Shown: positions 1 through 7,682 of the stretch, piece by piece
Position numbering within the stretch: position 1 is the first letter of the stretch
Layout of the letters: each line of letters begins with the position of its first letter
Origin: Erysipelothrix piscisicarius
Lineage (GTDB): Bacteria; Bacillota_I; Bacilli_A; Erysipelotrichales; Erysipelotrichaceae
Direction: 5' to 3'
NCBI RefSeq assembly: GCF_003931795.1
Contig: NZ_CP034234.1
Coordinates: forward strand, 1,426,001-1,490,000
DNA: 64,000 nucleotides
Program-made: the position numbers and the translations under genes
Notes under the pieces: generated by a model
Database searches by the model: none
Told to the model about the DNA's origin: nothing
The model's input: only the letters and a program-made list of their open reading frames with translations

Positions 1-1843
1 CTACAATTTCATCGCCATAGACTGGATTACAACAATTGCTTAAACCAATCATCATTGAATCAATTCCGGAAACACTAACGCCAGATTTACTGGTTGACTT
101 GCTTTGTTGCGTTGCACTGCGAGCAACCACTTTTTCAACTTTACTGTTTTCATCATTGATGTTTTTGTTAAGGTCTAATTTTTCAAAAAGAGCAGGAAAG
201 GAAAGTGATTTAGAAGCAATCGCATACATTAAATCGTCAAAAGAATTTACTGAAAACTGACTGTATACATGTTCAAATCGTTTTGAAGCCTTGAGTTCCT
301 TCTCATCGATACCACGACGTTTACATTCTTCTCTAAACATAGACTCGCCTTTATCCACAACTTCTTTGCGGTTATCCATTTGTTGTTTTAGAAGAAAGTT
401 ACGAATTTTATTTCGGGCATGCGTTGTTTTGACTACTTTCAGCCAATCTTCACTGGGTGTCGATTGCTTCGATGTCTTAACCTGAACAACATCCCCCGTT
501 TTAAGGGGTGTATTTAAAGGTACTAAGGTCCCGTTGACAATAGCACCAACGGTTTGATGTCCGACTTCGGTATGCACTCGGTACGCAAAATCAATTGGCG
601 TTGCACCATTTGGCAAGCCAATAACGCGACCTTTGGGAGTCATCACATAAACATTAGCCTCAAAAATATCTTTTTGAAGCACATTCATATAGTCTTGTGC
701 ATTTTCATCCACACCTTCGGTAAGGATATTAATATCTCTAAACCATGAAAGGCGATCTTCAATTTCTTTTTGATTTGCTTCTTGATTGGTGTTGCCTTCT
801 TTATATCGCCAATGCGCTGCAACCCCACGCTCCGCAATTTCATCCATTTGTTTCGTTCGAATTTGAACTTCAAAAATAGCGCCCTCATCACCAACGATTG
901 TGGTATGAAGGGATTGATACATATTCATTTTCGGCATTGCTATATAATCTTTCAAACGCCCTGGTATCGGGCGATAATTCGCGTGAATATGACCCAGAAT
1001 TTCATAACAATTTAATTCGGTTTCGGTAATAATTCGGATTGCAAGTAAATCTAAAATTTCATCAAAACGTTTATGTTTGGTCGTCATTTTTTTATAAATC
1101 GAATAGAGATGTTTAGAACGCCCAAAAATATTAAAACGAATATTATTCTCGAGCAATAGCTCGGCAATATCTTCAATCATGCGTGTGACCTGTGCATCGC
1201 GTTCTGCTTTACGATCATCCACGAGTCTTGCAATCTCATAATATTTATCACGGTGAAGATAACTGAAACTTAAATCCTCGAGTTCATTTTTAATTTCACC
1301 AAGACCTAATCGATGGGCAATCGGAGCATAGACATCTAAGGTTTCTGCCGCAATCTTTTTTTGTTTTTCTGGAGTATGATATTGGAGCGTTCGCATATTA
1401 TGGAGACGGTCTACAAGTTTAATAAAAATAACCCGGACATCTTTTGCCATCGCAATAAAGATTTTACGATGATTTGCCGCAAGATACTCCTTCTCATCTT
1501 TAAATTCAATATTTCCTATTTTGGTAACACTTTCCACCAGTGTTGCGATTTCTTCATTAAATTCTTCTGCAAGTTCTTCTTTACTTACATCACAATCTTC
1601 AATTACGTCATGCAACAATCCTGCAGAAATGGTGGTTGGAGACATGCCTAAATTTGAAAGGATATAACACACGTGCAAAATATGAACAATATACGGTTCA
1701 CCACTTTTACGATATTGACCTGAATGCTTCGCTTCCGCAAACTTATATGCATGCGTAATTAATTCAATGTTTTCAGGTGATGTAATATATTTTGACGTCT
1801 CTTCGAGTATCATATCAAAACTAATAGCTTGAAATTGTCTCAT
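1..1843 (-). CDS. relA: Bifunctional (p)ppGpp synthetase/hydrolase RelA/Rsh (C-terminus beyond window)
   Basis: Makes and degrades the alarmone (p)ppGpp from ATP and GTP/GDP. The frame is open from ATG 1843 (GGAGGT ribosome site just upstream) to the window edge, giving about 614 residues, so the ACT-like C-terminus is missing from view. Visible in order: the HD hydrolase domain with HD at residues 78-79 (HDVIED), a synthetase domain with LYSIYKKM and the EVQIRT...AAHW signature, then a TGS domain (VYVMTPKGRVIGLPNGAT). Both catalytic halves look intact, so this is a long Rsh enzyme. It lies directly downstream of apt, the classic Bacillota apt-relA order, and is last in a long minus-strand run starting at mraZ or above. 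Confidence 0.95.
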   Translation of the reverse strand, partial: MRQFQAISFDMILEETSKYITSPENIELITHAYKFAEAKHSGQYRKSGEPYIVHILHVCYILSNLGMSPTTISAGLLHDVIEDCDVSKEELAEEFNEEIATLVESVTKIGNIEFKDEKEYLAANHRKIFIAMAKDVRVIFIKLVDRLHNMRTLQYHTPEKQKKIAAETLDVYAPIAHRLGLGEIKNELEDLSFSYLHRDKYYEIARLVDDRKAERDAQVTRMIEDIAELLLENNIRFNIFGRSKHLYSIYKKMTTKHKRFDEILDLLAIRIITETELNCYEILGHIHANYRPIPGRLKDYIAMPKMNMYQSLHTTIVGDEGAIFEVQIRTKQMDEIAERGVAAHWRYKEGNTNQEANQKEIEDRLSWFRDINILTEGVDENAQDYMNVLQKDIFEANVYVMTPKGRVIGLPNGATPIDFAYRVHTEVGHQTVGAIVNGTLVPLNTPLKTGDVVQVKTSKQSTPSEDWLKVVKTTHARNKIRNFLLKQQMDNRKEVVDKGESMFREECKRRGIDEKELKASKRFEHVYSQFSVNSFDDLMYAIASKSLSFPALFEKLDLNKNINDENSKVEKVVARSATQQSKSTSKSGVSVSGIDSMMIGLSNCCNPVYGDEIV

Positions 1844-1865: not shown

Positions 1866-1890
1866 AAGAACGAAGGGATCTTCGTTCTTA
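1866..1890 (-). terminator. Hairpin with T-tract between apt and relA
   Basis: On the minus strand GAACGAAG-atcc-CTTCGTTC is followed by TTTT, starting at the apt stop codon and ending 23 bases before the relA start. It could act as a partial terminator or attenuator, lowering relA relative to apt. The short T-run argues for incomplete termination. Confidence 0.55.
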
Positions 1891-2400
1891 GTATTGCATA
1901 ATTGTAAAGACTTCATAGCCTTCAAGTTTGTCGCGACCATTTAAATCTTCAAGTTCAATAAGAAATCCACATCCTACAACTTCAGCACCCAATTCTTCAA
2001 TAAGTGCTACCGACGCTTCAACCGTTCCACCAGTAGCAAGTAAGTCATCGATGATGAGCACTTTTTGTCCTGGTTTTACACCGTCTTTATGGATATGAAG
2101 TTCATTGGAACCATATTCAAGATCGTATTTGTAACTTACCGTTTCACGAGGTAATTTACCCGGTTTACGAACAGGAACAAACCCAATATTCATTGCATAA
2201 GCAACTGGACACCCAAAGATAAACCCTCGGGACTCCGGTCCTACAATAACATCTGCACCGACTTTACGGGCAAAACCTTCAAAGAGGCGCGTTGCTTCCG
2301 CAAAAGCTTCACCATCGGCCATTAAAGGGGTAATATCTCGAAACTTGATGCCTTCTTTAGGGAAATCATCAATTGTTGCAATATAGTTTTTTAAATCCAT
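1888..2400 (-). CDS. apt: Adenine phosphoribosyltransferase
   Basis: Purine salvage: adenine + PRPP to AMP + pyrophosphate, cytoplasmic. The 170-residue protein has the family length and carries the PRPP-binding motif [13 protein letters not shown] at about residues 114-126, plus the N-terminal [16 protein letters not shown] segment typical of Apt. An upstream TTG at 2412 is in frame, but GGAGGA lies 4-5 bases before ATG 2400, so I take the ATG. The recJ-apt-relA order is conserved in Bacillota, although here a surface-protein gene is inserted between recJ and apt. Confidence 0.96.
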
Positions 2401-2430
2401 AACATCCTCCAAAGTACATTATTTATTATA

Positions 2431-4062
2431 TCATAGTTTCTTCTTTTTCTTGTACTTATTAAAATAGAAAAAACCACTTCCTCCAATTATTGTTAGGACA
2501 ATAATGAGTAACGAGATAATGATAAAATGATCATCGGTTTTCGCAAGCTTATTGAATGTAATCACATAGTCATTATTGGTTACCGAAAATTTAAGTCGAT
2601 CTTCATTGGATACAGAGACTTCTTGATTGGTAAACTCAAGATCGTTTTTGTTAGTACGTTCATAGATAAAATGCATCTGGGAGAACGTTGACTCAATCAA
2701 TTTCGCGGACAACTCTACGGTCGTCCCTTCACCAAATTGTGATTGATTCGCAAAAACCAACTCAAAAGCCCGCCCTGATAACTGTTCATACAAGGGTGAA
2801 CGCTCTGTGATTTGGATGATTTTAAATCGTAAATCCACATCATGTGGATAGGCCCCTTGAAAATTATAGATGATTAGAGGTACGTTACGCTTATCAACCA
2901 AATGAATGGATAATGTTTTATCCGTTAAGGCGCTCATGACTGCTTCAGAAACAACAAAGGACTCTAGGTTTGCCATATCTTTTTCTAATAACACATCATC
3001 CAGAACCAATATCACTTCTGAATGATCACGAGCTTCAATAAACTTCGTTAAGATTTCATCCGGTAATGTAAGCGCGTATTTTTGATTATCTGCCTTACTA
3101 AGATTATCTGTAACGAGAACCAATCGATCGCCATCTTCTTTATCAACCTTCAGTTTGATAATATCGGCACCGGATTCTGTTTGCTTTGATTTAACTGTAA
3201 CCTCAAGTTCAGCATGATGTTCACCAATTGTTGCGGTAACTTTGGTTTTACCAATTTTCTTTGCAACCAAATGATCTCCGATAACTTCCACAATACCATT
3301 ATCTTCCGAAACATAACTTGCATTGCGTGAAGTCGTTGTATCATAAGGTACAAAAATAAGATCAGGGATTGCGACTTCATCTTCCAAAACAATGGAGAGA
3401 TTTGAAGGATTAAACTCAATATCACGTAAAGGAATGGTTACGGTAACTTTCACACTGGATGTAATGGTTCCAATCTGCGCAGTTATCGTTGTCGTCCCCG
3501 CAGATTTCGCGGTTACCTTGCCATTTACAACATCCGCAACGGCCGTATTCTCAGATGACCAAATAATGCTTTTATCTTTCATGGCGTCATTGCTTAAGGT
3601 ATATTCAAGTTCATATTCAAATCCACGGTTAATATAAATGTCTTCATTTTTAAAATTGATGGTTCCATCCAAAACATTTACTTTAACACTGATTTCTTTC
3701 GTATAAATTTGTTCCCCATCCACTGCAACAATAGTGATGATGGACGATCCCTTTGAAAGCGTTGTAAGCAAGCCTTTTTCCGACACACTTACAATATCTG
3801 GATTTTCACTTTTAAAGGATACCGTCGCTTGCTTGCTCAGCCCTTCTAAGGTGTAATCAATTTGCATGCTTGAATTTTCATACAAATCATATTTGGTTTG
3901 TTTAATTTTTATTGGATCTTTAACAACTTCCGTATCATCTTGCGATACCGCAACACGATGCGTAGCAGGAGGAATCTTATCCGCAATGGGTTGCTTATTA
4001 ATTTGTGGATTTGGCCCAATACCACTCAGAAGTAATACTGTGGCTAAAAATGTTTTAAACAT
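2431..4062 (-). CDS. Big2-domain surface protein with C-terminal membrane anchor
   Basis: A 543-residue predicted surface protein. An N-terminal hydrophobic signal (MFKTFLATVLLLSGIG) is followed by three Ig-like bacterial Big2-type modules (about residues 50-300), recognisable from repeated W/F-x-S-E-N-x-x-I/V-A/S-V and G-x-T-T/K-I/V-T-A patterns. A 180-residue region without a clear family follows, then a hydrophobic helix (IIISLLIIVLTIIGGSGFFYF) and a lysine-rich tail (KYKKKKKL). No LPXTG motif is visible, so it is probably held by the membrane helix. ATG 4062 is chosen because AGGAGG lies 6 bases upstream; the in-frame extension to 4092 has no such site. It is wedged between recJ and apt, where most relatives have nothing. 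A role in adhesion or envelope structure is inference only. Confidence 0.75.
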   Translation of the reverse strand: MFKTFLATVLLLSGIGPNPQINKQPIADKIPPATHRVAVSQDDTEVVKDPIKIKQTKYDLYENSSMQIDYTLEGLSKQATVSFKSENPDIVSVSEKGLLTTLSKGSSIITIVAVDGEQIYTKEISVKVNVLDGTINFKNEDIYINRGFEYELEYTLSNDAMKDKSIIWSSENTAVADVVNGKVTAKSAGTTTITAQIGTITSSVKVTVTIPLRDIEFNPSNLSIVLEDEVAIPDLIFVPYDTTTSRNASYVSEDNGIVEVIGDHLVAKKIGKTKVTATIGEHHAELEVTVKSKQTESGADIIKLKVDKEDGDRLVLVTDNLSKADNQKYALTLPDEILTKFIEARDHSEVILVLDDVLLEKDMANLESFVVSEAVMSALTDKTLSIHLVDKRNVPLIIYNFQGAYPHDVDLRFKIIQITERSPLYEQLSGRAFELVFANQSQFGEGTTVELSAKLIESTFSQMHFIYERTNKNDLEFTNQEVSVSNEDRLKFSVTNNDYVITFNKLAKTDDHFIIISLLIIVLTIIGGSGFFYFNKYKKKKKL

Positions 4063-4100
4063 AACATGCCTCCTCATCAATATTTCTATCATATCATAAG

Positions 4101-5642
4101 TTATTCAAAATCTTCTACGAACAATACATTTTTTGAACGACTGTCTAAATCTAATGTTACAATTAAACTGCGTGCAGCTTGCAATTGATATTTTTGATAT
4201 TGTTGGGTAAAAAATACCGCTTCATCAAATGGAAACCCATTAAATGCATATTTAAATCCATATCCATTAAGATTGTATAATTGAAAATCACGTGGGATAT
4301 CAACACGCATTAACGGCAATTTAAAACCTTCACCAAAGGGTTCTAGATGGCGTAACTCATCCAGAGCTGTTTGAGTGATCCAAGCCGGATCAATGGAAAG
4401 CACGGTCTCATGACGTCCTTCAAACGCTCCAAAATCGGATACAATCTGATTAACATCTGCTCTAAAAGCGTCAAAGGTTGCTTTGTTTAAAGTCATTCCG
4501 TATGCGAAATCATGGCCACCCATGGCCACAAAGTAATCTGAATGAACTTCAGTAAAAATATCTTGAAGTGAGAACGTCATGCTTCGAGCACTTCCTTTTA
4601 AGACATTATCATATTCCGTAAGAACAACAGTTGGTTTCATGGTTTCTTGTGCAACTTGGTTCGCAACAATACCGAGCAACCCTTCATGGAATCGCTTATC
4701 AACAATAATTTGAATGGGATCATCATTAACCTGAGCCATGGCTACTTCTTTCAATGCTTTTCCTTGTTCTTTACGGTAATCATTAAGTTTGAATAATTGT
4801 TTGGCATATGACGTAATTACCGATTCATCCGGTGTTGTAAAGTATTGGACTAAGGTATTCACATTCGCAAGATCACCCAAGCGTCCAACCGTATTGATTT
4901 TTGGAATTGCTTGAAATGACAACAGTTTTGCGGAGTAATGCGTAAAGCGATTTCGTTTAACTAACGCATCAAATTGCAAGAATTGATTTTGATTCAATGC
5001 CTGAATTCCGTTACGAACAAGCTCACGATTTTTACCCCAAAGCGGCATTACATCCGCAACCGTAGCAGTGCATGCCAAGGCAAGCATGTATGAATCACTT
5101 AAACCCATGCGTTCCGCAACACAATATATGAGTCCACTGGCACACATTGATGCTTCATACGGACTGCATACGTCGGGATGTAAAAACGCATCAGCGGTGA
5201 CGGGTTCATCAATGATATGATGATCAACCACCGCAACACGCATTCCTAACGCTTGCGCATACGCAATCTCTTCATGAGCCTTAACCCCGTTATCGATAAT
5301 TAAGACATCCTTGTAGCCCCGTTTGTGAGCCATGGTTATGGTCTCCTTTGAGACCCCGTATCCTTCTTTAAGTCGATTTGGAATATAATAACCGACTTCA
5401 AGATTACATTTTTTTGCTAAGAGCACCGCAATACTTGTTGAAGAAACACCATCACAGTCATAATCGCCACAAACAATGAGTTTAGTAGCACGTTGATAGA
5501 AATCAATGATGGAATCGATGGCCTTATTGGAAACAATACGGTCTGTTGGATTGAATAATTCCTGTAATTGAGAGTCCGTTAAGTTCATCGTTTTAAGCGT
5601 TTCTTGTACAAGGGGTGATAAAGCGTTAGTCATATCGTTCAC
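4101..5642 (-). CDS. recJ: RecJ-type DHH single-strand DNA exonuclease
   Basis: 5'-3' single-strand DNA exonuclease for recombination and mismatch/base-excision repair. The 513-residue protein shows DHH motif I (GDYDCDG, about residues 59-65), the DHH triad in VVDHHIID (about 138-145), and a downstream DHHA1-like glycine motif (FVAMGGHDFAYGMTL). It is shorter than typical Bacillus RecJ, so the C-terminal extension is probably reduced. Start: GTG 5642 with AGGTGG about 10 bases upstream, overlapping the end of secDF; ATG 5633 is an alternative with poorer spacing. The secDF-recJ-apt-relA order supports the name. Confidence 0.9.
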   Translation of the reverse strand: MNDMTNALSPLVQETLKTMNLTDSQLQELFNPTDRIVSNKAIDSIIDFYQRATKLIVCGDYDCDGVSSTSIAVLLAKKCNLEVGYYIPNRLKEGYGVSKETITMAHKRGYKDVLIIDNGVKAHEEIAYAQALGMRVAVVDHHIIDEPVTADAFLHPDVCSPYEASMCASGLIYCVAERMGLSDSYMLALACTATVADVMPLWGKNRELVRNGIQALNQNQFLQFDALVKRNRFTHYSAKLLSFQAIPKINTVGRLGDLANVNTLVQYFTTPDESVITSYAKQLFKLNDYRKEQGKALKEVAMAQVNDDPIQIIVDKRFHEGLLGIVANQVAQETMKPTVVLTEYDNVLKGSARSMTFSLQDIFTEVHSDYFVAMGGHDFAYGMTLNKATFDAFRADVNQIVSDFGAFEGRHETVLSIDPAWITQTALDELRHLEPFGEGFKLPLMRVDIPRDFQLYNLNGYGFKYAFNGFPFDEAVFFTQQYQKYQLQAARSLIVTLDLDSRSKNVLFVEDFE

Positions 5643-7338
5643 GTTTGTGTACCCACCTTTTAATTAACCAAGCAATACAATAGAGGATGATTAAAGCTAA
5701 ATAAATCGCAAAAACCATCATCATTAAAATCGCAATCATTTCAACCGTTATTGGAACCGGAATAATTATTAGAATCGGTGTTGAAATAATCGCAAATAAA
5801 ATGAGATTAAGCATCAATGAGTCCATAAACTCCGATTCAAACAAATCTAAATTAAAAAATCGATTTAAGGAATATTGAGAACTGTAATAACATCCAATGA
5901 TTAATGGAATCGTCCAGACAATGTAAACCGTCTCTCGACTCCATTTAATATGATAAACCATCGTTAAGAAGACAAAGAGCATTGAGGACAACACACTTAA
6001 AATTGGAATCAAGATATTCCGTTTAAATCCAAAAATACAACTTACCATAATCCATGATGCAAGAATAAACACACCTAAGGTTAGATAGAAATCGACATCT
6101 TCAAGAGGAAATAGATTCTCAGGGGTATCGTAATAAGTTCCCTTAACATTAAATTTCGTCTTAACCCCACGCGCAGCAGCACCCAATTGTTTGGACGTGA
6201 CATTTTCATCAAAATGAATCCATGTGTCGCCCTGTTCGGTTACCTCATAGCTTAATTGATTATCAAAAATTCCCACTTCATAAAGCGTCGCTTGAAGTTC
6301 AAGGTATGCCGTTGATCGCGCATCATTCATAATTAATACATTTTGATTTGCAAAATCCCAACCCTTGTGTAAATCAATCCCCTTGGCGATCGCAAACAGG
6401 GTACTTAATAGCAAGACTGCAAGCATAACTGACACAGTGTTTTTAAATAACGCATGGGTAGGTTGGGTTATTTTTAAAACATTAATATTTTGAAAATGGA
6501 TAAAACTCGATGATTTTGGAATTTTTAATAGGAATCGTTCAAATACAAAATTAAATAATAGGAATTGTATTAAAACAATATAGCCTAAGAAAATCATGTA
6601 CCATCCGGTACGAACAAGCCCATATCGATTCAAAACGACCGCAACAAAACCAAAAATCAAATAAAATGCGGAATGAAGCAACGATACACGAATGTGTCGC
6701 TTACGGATATCTTGACGCGACTCCACAACCTCATGCAAGGTTAAGCCTTCAGAGTCCACTAAATACATCTGTTTTTGGTAAACAAGCATCATAAAAGAAA
6801 TCAAGACTGAATACCAGAGCGATTTTGTAAACGGATAACCAAATAACGAAACTAAAAGCAGGGATAACATCACACCAATTACGATTTCCATCCCTGCAAT
6901 CCATCCAAAAAACCGAAACCTAAAACAAAAATAACCGACCGTTAAGGCCATAAATAAAACCAGATACAAACTAATAAAGCTCTGAGTACTCATCAATTTT
7001 GTAACCGATCCAAATGTTCCTGTATTCCAAACCACTAAATCTGATACATGAGCATCAATACTATTAACAAGGTCGGTTATATTTTCGACACCTGAAAAGG
7101 ATAACGCATAGTGATTTGAATCAATCACACGTTTACGCCATTCACGATTATTGCGTGTTTGGTTTGAAAGAAAGTTGTTTAAGCCCGTACGATCTTTTGT
7201 TTCAACGATTAGACGAACATCGTGACCAAAGCCCAAACCCGTATTTAATCGCCCAACCGTCGTAAGCGTCAAAAAACCTACCAAAACAGTAACAATGATT
7301 ACAATAAACGAAACTCTTAACTCAGCTTTTGTTTTCAT
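5626..7338 (-). CDS. secDF: Degenerate SecDF-like membrane protein
   Basis: A 570-residue polytopic protein with two similar halves of roughly six membrane segments each, the SecD-SecF fusion layout. Weak landmarks remain: TVGRLNTGLGFGHDVRLIVE after the first helix, where SecD has GLDLRGG, and AKGIDLHKGWDF at the start of the second half, where SecF has GIDFTGG. The large first periplasmic domain is cut to about 90 residues, and I cannot find the DANV (SecD) or ND-TVV (SecF) transmembrane motifs. Canonical fused SecDF is about 730 residues. The name therefore rests largely on synteny (comN-secDF-recJ-apt-relA) and topology. ATG 7338 has GAGGAG upstream and overlaps the comN stop (ATGA), indicating translational coupling. 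Confidence 0.65.
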   Translation of the reverse strand: MKTKAELRVSFIVIIVTVLVGFLTLTTVGRLNTGLGFGHDVRLIVETKDRTGLNNFLSNQTRNNREWRKRVIDSNHYALSFSGVENITDLVNSIDAHVSDLVVWNTGTFGSVTKLMSTQSFISLYLVLFMALTVGYFCFRFRFFGWIAGMEIVIGVMLSLLLVSLFGYPFTKSLWYSVLISFMMLVYQKQMYLVDSEGLTLHEVVESRQDIRKRHIRVSLLHSAFYLIFGFVAVVLNRYGLVRTGWYMIFLGYIVLIQFLLFNFVFERFLLKIPKSSSFIHFQNINVLKITQPTHALFKNTVSVMLAVLLLSTLFAIAKGIDLHKGWDFANQNVLIMNDARSTAYLELQATLYEVGIFDNQLSYEVTEQGDTWIHFDENVTSKQLGAAARGVKTKFNVKGTYYDTPENLFPLEDVDFYLTLGVFILASWIMVSCIFGFKRNILIPILSVLSSMLFVFLTMVYHIKWSRETVYIVWTIPLIIGCYYSSQYSLNRFFNLDLFESEFMDSLMLNLILFAIISTPILIIIPVPITVEMIAILMMMVFAIYLALIILYCIAWLIKRWVHKRERYD

Positions 7339-7622
7339 TGAATCTCCTCGTCCTCAAATAAATTCTGATAGTCTTCAAGAGATGATTTTAACCCATTGAT
7401 TTTAGATTCCGTCGCAAGCCACCTTACAACATCTTCATCCGTCGTTTTAAAAATATCATCGGCTAATTCACTTAACCGAGATGGCTCTTTATGACGCCAT
7501 ACATAGGTTGTAAACATGCGGTACAAATCATCATATGAAACGCCTTTTAATCCATTATTATGTATTTGACGAAGTCTTAATGTTAGTAACAATTTAAATT
7601 GTTGTGTATTATCATCTTTCAT
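7335..7622 (-). CDS. comN: ComN-like post-transcriptional regulator family protein
   Basis: A 95-residue soluble protein. The pattern L-RLRQIHNNGLKGVSYDDL, then the W of YVWRHKEP, then RLSELADDIF resembles the post-transcriptional regulator (ComN/YrzD) family, which in Bacillus subtilis affects comE mRNA and localises to septa. B. subtilis yrzD also lies near secDF. ATG 7622 has AGGTGA upstream; the longer in-frame version (start 7667) lacks a good site. The gene overlaps secDF by 4 bases. A role in controlling the comEA/comEC genes seen at 60.5-62.7 kb is possible but inferred from family only. Confidence 0.6.
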   Translation of the reverse strand: MKDDNTQQFKLLLTLRLRQIHNNGLKGVSYDDLYRMFTTYVWRHKEPSRLSELADDIFKTTDEDVVRWLATESKINGLKSSLEDYQNLFEDEEIQ

Positions 7623-7682
7623 ACATTCACCTAGCCTCATCACGTATATGATACACGAAAAACACAAAAGAAAAAACTTTAA

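Follow-up and report, generated by a model that had tools for sequence, protein, structure and literature searches.

What is the protein encoded between comN and recJ in Erysipelothrix piscisicarius, and what could maintain it? An earlier note on the window (the whole stretch of 64,000 nucleotides analysed here, from a genome of 1.72 Mb in a single contig) took it for a core-only SecDF that lacks its key motifs, which may have another role or be on its way out. The question touches on a wider one, as a role of SecDF beyond proton-driven pulling, such as a scaffold for SecYEG-YidC or channel clearing, has been argued for years. In our literature search, which had partial coverage, no paper described a reduced or missing SecDF in Erysipelothrix.

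The locus and the identity of its product

The gene set comN-secDF-recJ-apt-relA described before is present (Table 1), with one further gene that had gone unmentioned. Located between recJ and apt, it encodes a surface protein that carries Big_2 (bacterial Ig-like) domains and is anchored to the membrane at its C-terminus. The SecDF-like gene shares 4 nt at its ATG with the end of comN, and 17 nt at its own end with recJ. These overlaps indicate tight packing and, probably, translational coupling.

Table 1. Coordinates, in the window, of the SecDF-like gene, its neighbours and the parts of its product.
Feature	Position	Strand	Remarks
relA/spoT-like	2..1843	-	by sequence; runs off the window
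apt	1888..2412	-	
Big_2 protein, 553 aa, between recJ and apt	2431..4092		
recJ	4101..5642	-	
Motor-less SecDF orthologue, 570 aa, 12 predicted TM helices	5626..7338	-	ATG start, fully open frame
comN, post-transcriptional regulator	7335..7667	-	Post_transc_reg PF13797, E 1.5e-7
GLGFGHD, residues 34-40	7219..7239	-	relic of the SecD motif GLDLQGG
P1-base-like ferredoxin-fold domain, residues 39-109	7012..7224	-	no P1-head insert; model, pLDDT 80
TFGS motif, residues 108-111	7006..7017	-	P1 end, near invariant
TM4	6754..6825	-	equivalent of Thermus D340 is Y187 (6778-6780)
P4-like extracytoplasmic domain, residues 332-405	6124..6345	-	beta-alpha-beta-beta-alpha-beta; aligned to canonical P4
YLELQATL, residues 345-352	6283..6306	-	conserved in P4 (pattern YLExQAxL)
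WxxFD, residues 373-377	6208..6222	-	conserved in P4
TM10	5875..5937	-	without equivalent of Thermus D637
TM11	5764..5850	-	without equivalent of Thermus R671

Twelve other Erysipelothrix species carry the gene, with identities from 97% down to approximately 18-20%. Those with a name are E. tonsillarum (the nearest named relative of the window species), E. anatis, E. aquatica, E. urinaevulpis and E. sp. HDW6A. The frame, already reported as fully open in the window, is open in all 13 species. The plasmid collection had no match to the protein. In E. sp. HDW6A, murD (L056:1304-2613) is split into two frames of 332 and 93 aa, by a frameshift or a sequencing error.

In terms of direct searches, the single 570-aa sequence gave nothing significant against Pfam, NCBIfam or, with phmmer, the PDB, and none of the 13 Erysipelothrix proteins matches a Pfam SecDF model. 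Annotation pipelines are thus likely to miss the gene, and these genomes would be scored as lacking SecDF. The sole NCBIfam match, to the recognised divergent SecDF type NF037998, was not significant (E 0.4; 8 bits against a cut-off of 400), and its 1237-aa model is about twice as long. Some relatives have PF02355 matches of approximately 700 aa, which were considered as intermediates and rejected, being MmpL-type RND proteins at other loci.

A clearer picture came from profile comparison with hhalign. The 13 Erysipelothrix proteins matched 11 intact SecDF of the same family with a probability of 96.9% (E 1.7e-10); the match covers 335 columns and stays in register between TM2 and TM10. The MmpL-type RND proteins mentioned above, from the same bacterial family, served as negative control; they have the RND superfamily fold in common with the Erysipelothrix protein, but their profile match was not significant (0.4%, E 0.16) and their loci differ. 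Furthermore, the same comN-recJ slot holds an intact SecDF of approximately 760 aa in other genera of Erysipelotrichaceae.

As for structure, an AlphaFold model built from six sequences (moderate, pLDDT 65, pTM 0.60) has 12 helices and two ferredoxin-like extracytoplasmic domains, with the extracytoplasmic loops following TM1 and TM7 as in the 12-TM RND fold. The six best PDB matches of this model in Foldseek are all SecDF (E 4e-9 to 8e-7). With VIA-align, the match to SecDF 5xan_B (Z 16.5, 426 residues, rmsd 6.0) was equalled by those to Patched and to further RND folds. The fold by itself therefore points to RND, and the identity as SecDF comes from sequence profile and slot. The P1 domain folded alone gave generic ferredoxin-like matches without SecDF among them, a result that is neutral as to identity.

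Taken together, slot, profile match and fold identify the product of 5626-7338 as the SecDF orthologue of Erysipelothrix, as had been proposed from synteny and topology. With the intact SecDF of Thermus thermophilus, Bacillus subtilis and the 760-aa Erysipelotrichaceae forms it shares the ComN-SecDF-RecJ slot, the 12-TM RND fold, the P1-base-like and P4-like domains and a statistically supported homology. Unlike these, it has no proton-relay residues, no P1-head and no C-terminal IPGIND tail, its GG motif is degraded and it is approximately 190 residues shorter. A second, complete SecDF was not found in the genome: PF02355 matched nothing, and the SecD model reached just an MmpL-type protein at 1181-1182 kb. 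This MmpL-type RND gene (G000 C1:1181224-1182410; L112, L113) lies in multiple frames and looks interrupted; it is not a SecDF.

Motor residues and conserved positions

In E. coli, SecDF activity depends critically on SecD Asp519 and SecF Arg247, and ion-channel activity disappears when their Thermus counterparts are mutated (PMC3643904). Numbering was transferred through an intact relative aligned to the sequence of Thermus SecDF 3aqp, with D340, D637 and R671 in the expected places. The TM4 and TM5 Asp are present in all 11 intact relatives and the TM11 Arg in 10 of them. The TM10 Asp (Thermus D637) is Asn in 8 of the 11 (L048, L097-L103), with SINNSIV and not ND-TIV. Part of the SecF proton site has thus changed even where the motor otherwise looks intact.

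Among the 13 Erysipelothrix proteins, the TM4 Asp position is occupied by Tyr, Phe, Ile, Val or Asn, non-acidic in every case, and the TM5 Asp is gone in all. Their alignment shows neither a conserved acidic residue in TM4, in TM5 or in the TM10 core nor a conserved Arg in TM11; the TM10 and TM11 equivalences come from gapped alignments, and the absence of these residues holds whatever the placement. The earlier note could not find the DANV (SecD) and ND-TVV (SecF) motifs in the window protein, an observation that holds. Judged from these alignments, all proton-relay residues (TM4 Asp, TM5 Asp, TM10 Asp and TM11 Arg) are lost. The motor-less pattern is, on sequence grounds, beyond chance, as it recurs in 13 species down to 18% identity. 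Next, the P1-head (PF22599) is absent from all 13 proteins, the model being matched in an intact relative. With both the proton-relay residues and the P1-head lost, action as the known proton-driven pulling motor appears very unlikely. The description of a SecDF core deprived of its key motifs, which the earlier note had given for one protein, is in this way confirmed for the genus sample.

The first extracytoplasmic domain, previously estimated at about 90 residues, has approximately 75-90 and is arranged as beta-alpha-beta-beta-alpha-beta in the model. The reduction of GLDLRGG to GLGFGHD was also seen again: the site reads G(L/I)GFG(H/R/K)D in the window protein and in seven of its nearest relatives. 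The versions of this motif run from the canonical LGLDLQGG, through the intermediate GLGMGRD of the G085 protein (LGLGMGRD), to the TGIGFGRD of Erysipelothrix.

Columns conserved in at least 80% of the divergent rows cluster outside the membrane. These are G34, F37, G38, F56, E66, TFGS 108-111, LE 346-347, QA 349-350 and L352, followed by Y364, S367, W373, F376 and D377. Conserved positions in the membrane or at its edge are few (Y125, R140, G145, L160 and W175). As far as conservation of columns indicates, constraint sits in the two extracytoplasmic domains and not in the proton path.

Graded reduction and loss in Erysipelotrichaceae

Within Erysipelotrichaceae we found a graded series, from intact SecDF of 760 aa, through motor-less forms of 775 aa, of 650-660 aa and, in Erysipelothrix, of 545-570 aa, to complete loss. 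The 775-aa form (genome G085) keeps both periplasmic domains and has no motor residues. The 650-660-aa forms belong to two genera (g24 and g42) and resemble the Erysipelothrix protein in slot, open frame and lack of motor residues, those of TM4, TM10 and TM11 being gone. At the TM5 Asp site there is Glu in g24 (L088-L090, L045, L087) and Ala, Ser or Phe in g42.

In terms of domains, the g24 and g42 forms keep most of P1 and are without P4, the reverse of Erysipelothrix, where P4 is kept and the P1-head is gone. The two opposite losses are separate events, and SecDF can lose its periplasmic domains individually. A cytoplasmic tail at the C-terminus (IPGIND, IFGINE or VLGVND; L048, L045, L096) is conserved in the intact, 650-aa and G085 proteins. 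It outlasts the motor in the latter two and is absent in Erysipelothrix.

Complete absence, with comN directly against recJ, is seen for example in G020, and SecDF is also missing in the sampled slots of a neighbouring family. Some survey genomes are incomplete and single absences are not firm, as in G026, where the contig ends near the slot. The complete loss in related genera shows that the wider family can indeed dispense with SecDF. In B. subtilis, SecDF is not essential (PMC12445088).

The RecJ tree places the 650-aa forms in one clade and groups Erysipelothrix with G085 (SH-aLRT 98), with G020 and G021, which have lost the gene, as sisters of these two. A topology holding the 650-aa and Erysipelothrix lineages together was not rejected (p-AU 0.19), so one shared loss of the motor is possible.

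Selection and the possible role of the protein

In comparisons of four closely related species, the SecDF-like gene has a dN/dS of 0.019-0.028, lower than the 0.042-0.057 of recJ and the 0.046-0.079 of murD. Several of these pairs approach synonymous saturation, but the value is no different in G002/G009, the pair least affected by it in the clade (dS 0.44, ratio 0.0195). In a second clade, the E. anatis/E. aquatica pair has a ratio of 0.055. This amounts to strong purifying selection in the window's clade, where some constraint had been deduced earlier from the open frame.

Rates across the tree vary widely. The ratio of SecDF to RecJ branch lengths, summed over the branch table on a fixed RecJ+MurD topology, is 0.31 over the window's clade and approximately 3.05 over the rest of the tree. 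The lengths between divergent species are uncertain, since sequences with less than 30% identity do not align perfectly. When genera are compared by distance, the ratio of SecDF to RecJ is 0.42 in the intact form, 1.47 in the 650-aa form and 2.38 in Erysipelothrix. Constraint was thus relaxed once the motor had gone, and it was restored in the window's clade.

As for function, we lean towards a clamp or scaffold that acts, unpowered, on the extracytoplasmic side of SecYEG-YidC. The protein would stay at the SecYEG-YidC export site, where its two extracytoplasmic domains, without ion flow, may hold or guide emerging chains as an anti-backsliding clamp, and SecA would supply the drive. Alternatively, it may steady the SecYEG-YidC assembly. 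YidC is present in the genome. Published work makes a PMF-independent role plausible: SecDF probably has a stabilising effect on the contact between SecYEG and YidC (PMC8082313), and SecYEG on its own is able to exploit the membrane potential (PMC6028853). The pulling of preproteins by SecDF is attributed to a P1-head that moves under proton drive (PMC8277102; PMC6028853), and the lack of this part, thought to grip preproteins, weakens the clamp role. YajC (PF02699) was not found in the window's genome, where it is either lost or too divergent, and scores above the cut-off in six other Erysipelothrix species. On the other side of the balance, the protein diverges between clades approximately three times faster than RecJ, as could be expected of a changed role and of a passive role alike.

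More tentatively, these lines together may reflect a second, proton-independent function of SecDF, preserved by selection after the loss of the motor. Trimming would then have followed two opposite paths (P1-head and P4), and the burst of divergence with renewed constraint in the window's clade, which includes E. tonsillarum, would mark a new fixed role. With the motor gone and the protein kept, these lineages are natural separation-of-function mutants, that is, ready-made constructs for studying a PMF-independent role.

The fast divergence between clades (2.38 against 0.42 for intact SecDF), followed by constraint in one of them (0.31), could also be expected from a repurposed RND protein, one that left export after motor loss for another envelope task (receptor, lipid-handling or regulatory), like energy-uncoupled RND-fold proteins. 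Loss of the P1-head and the appearance of the new conserved motifs TFGS and WxxFD would suit such a change. We consider it unlikely, however, since the gene never left the comN-recJ slot in the Erysipelothrix species with flanks read, SecDF proteins lead its Foldseek matches and there has been no gain of a domain or neighbour.

A clamp or scaffold would dispense with ion flow, and we also weighed a pump that would run on protons or another ion through residues unused by other SecDF. A basic pair in TM2 (R/K140 and R/K/H142) is found in all divergent rows and the acidic E469 of TM10 in 7 of 9. But E469 stands at the start of TM10, not mid-helix, and is not universal, while R140 and R142 are at the end of TM2. 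Moreover, TM4, the TM5 core and TM11 have no conserved ionisable residue and the P1-head lever is absent, which makes this kind of coupling improbable.

Lastly, a decaying gene, a remnant under relaxed selection in which a stop has yet to be acquired, would agree with the outright loss of SecDF in the sister lineages G020 and G021, and in the slots sampled from the neighbouring family, and with evolution between clades faster than that of intact SecDF, but it is very improbable given frames open in 13 of 13 species and, in the second clade too, a low dN/dS; for the window's clade, the selection data contradict the earlier suggestion of a disappearing gene, with a dN/dS of approximately 0.02 that lies below those of the housekeeping genes recJ and murD, the least saturated pair included.
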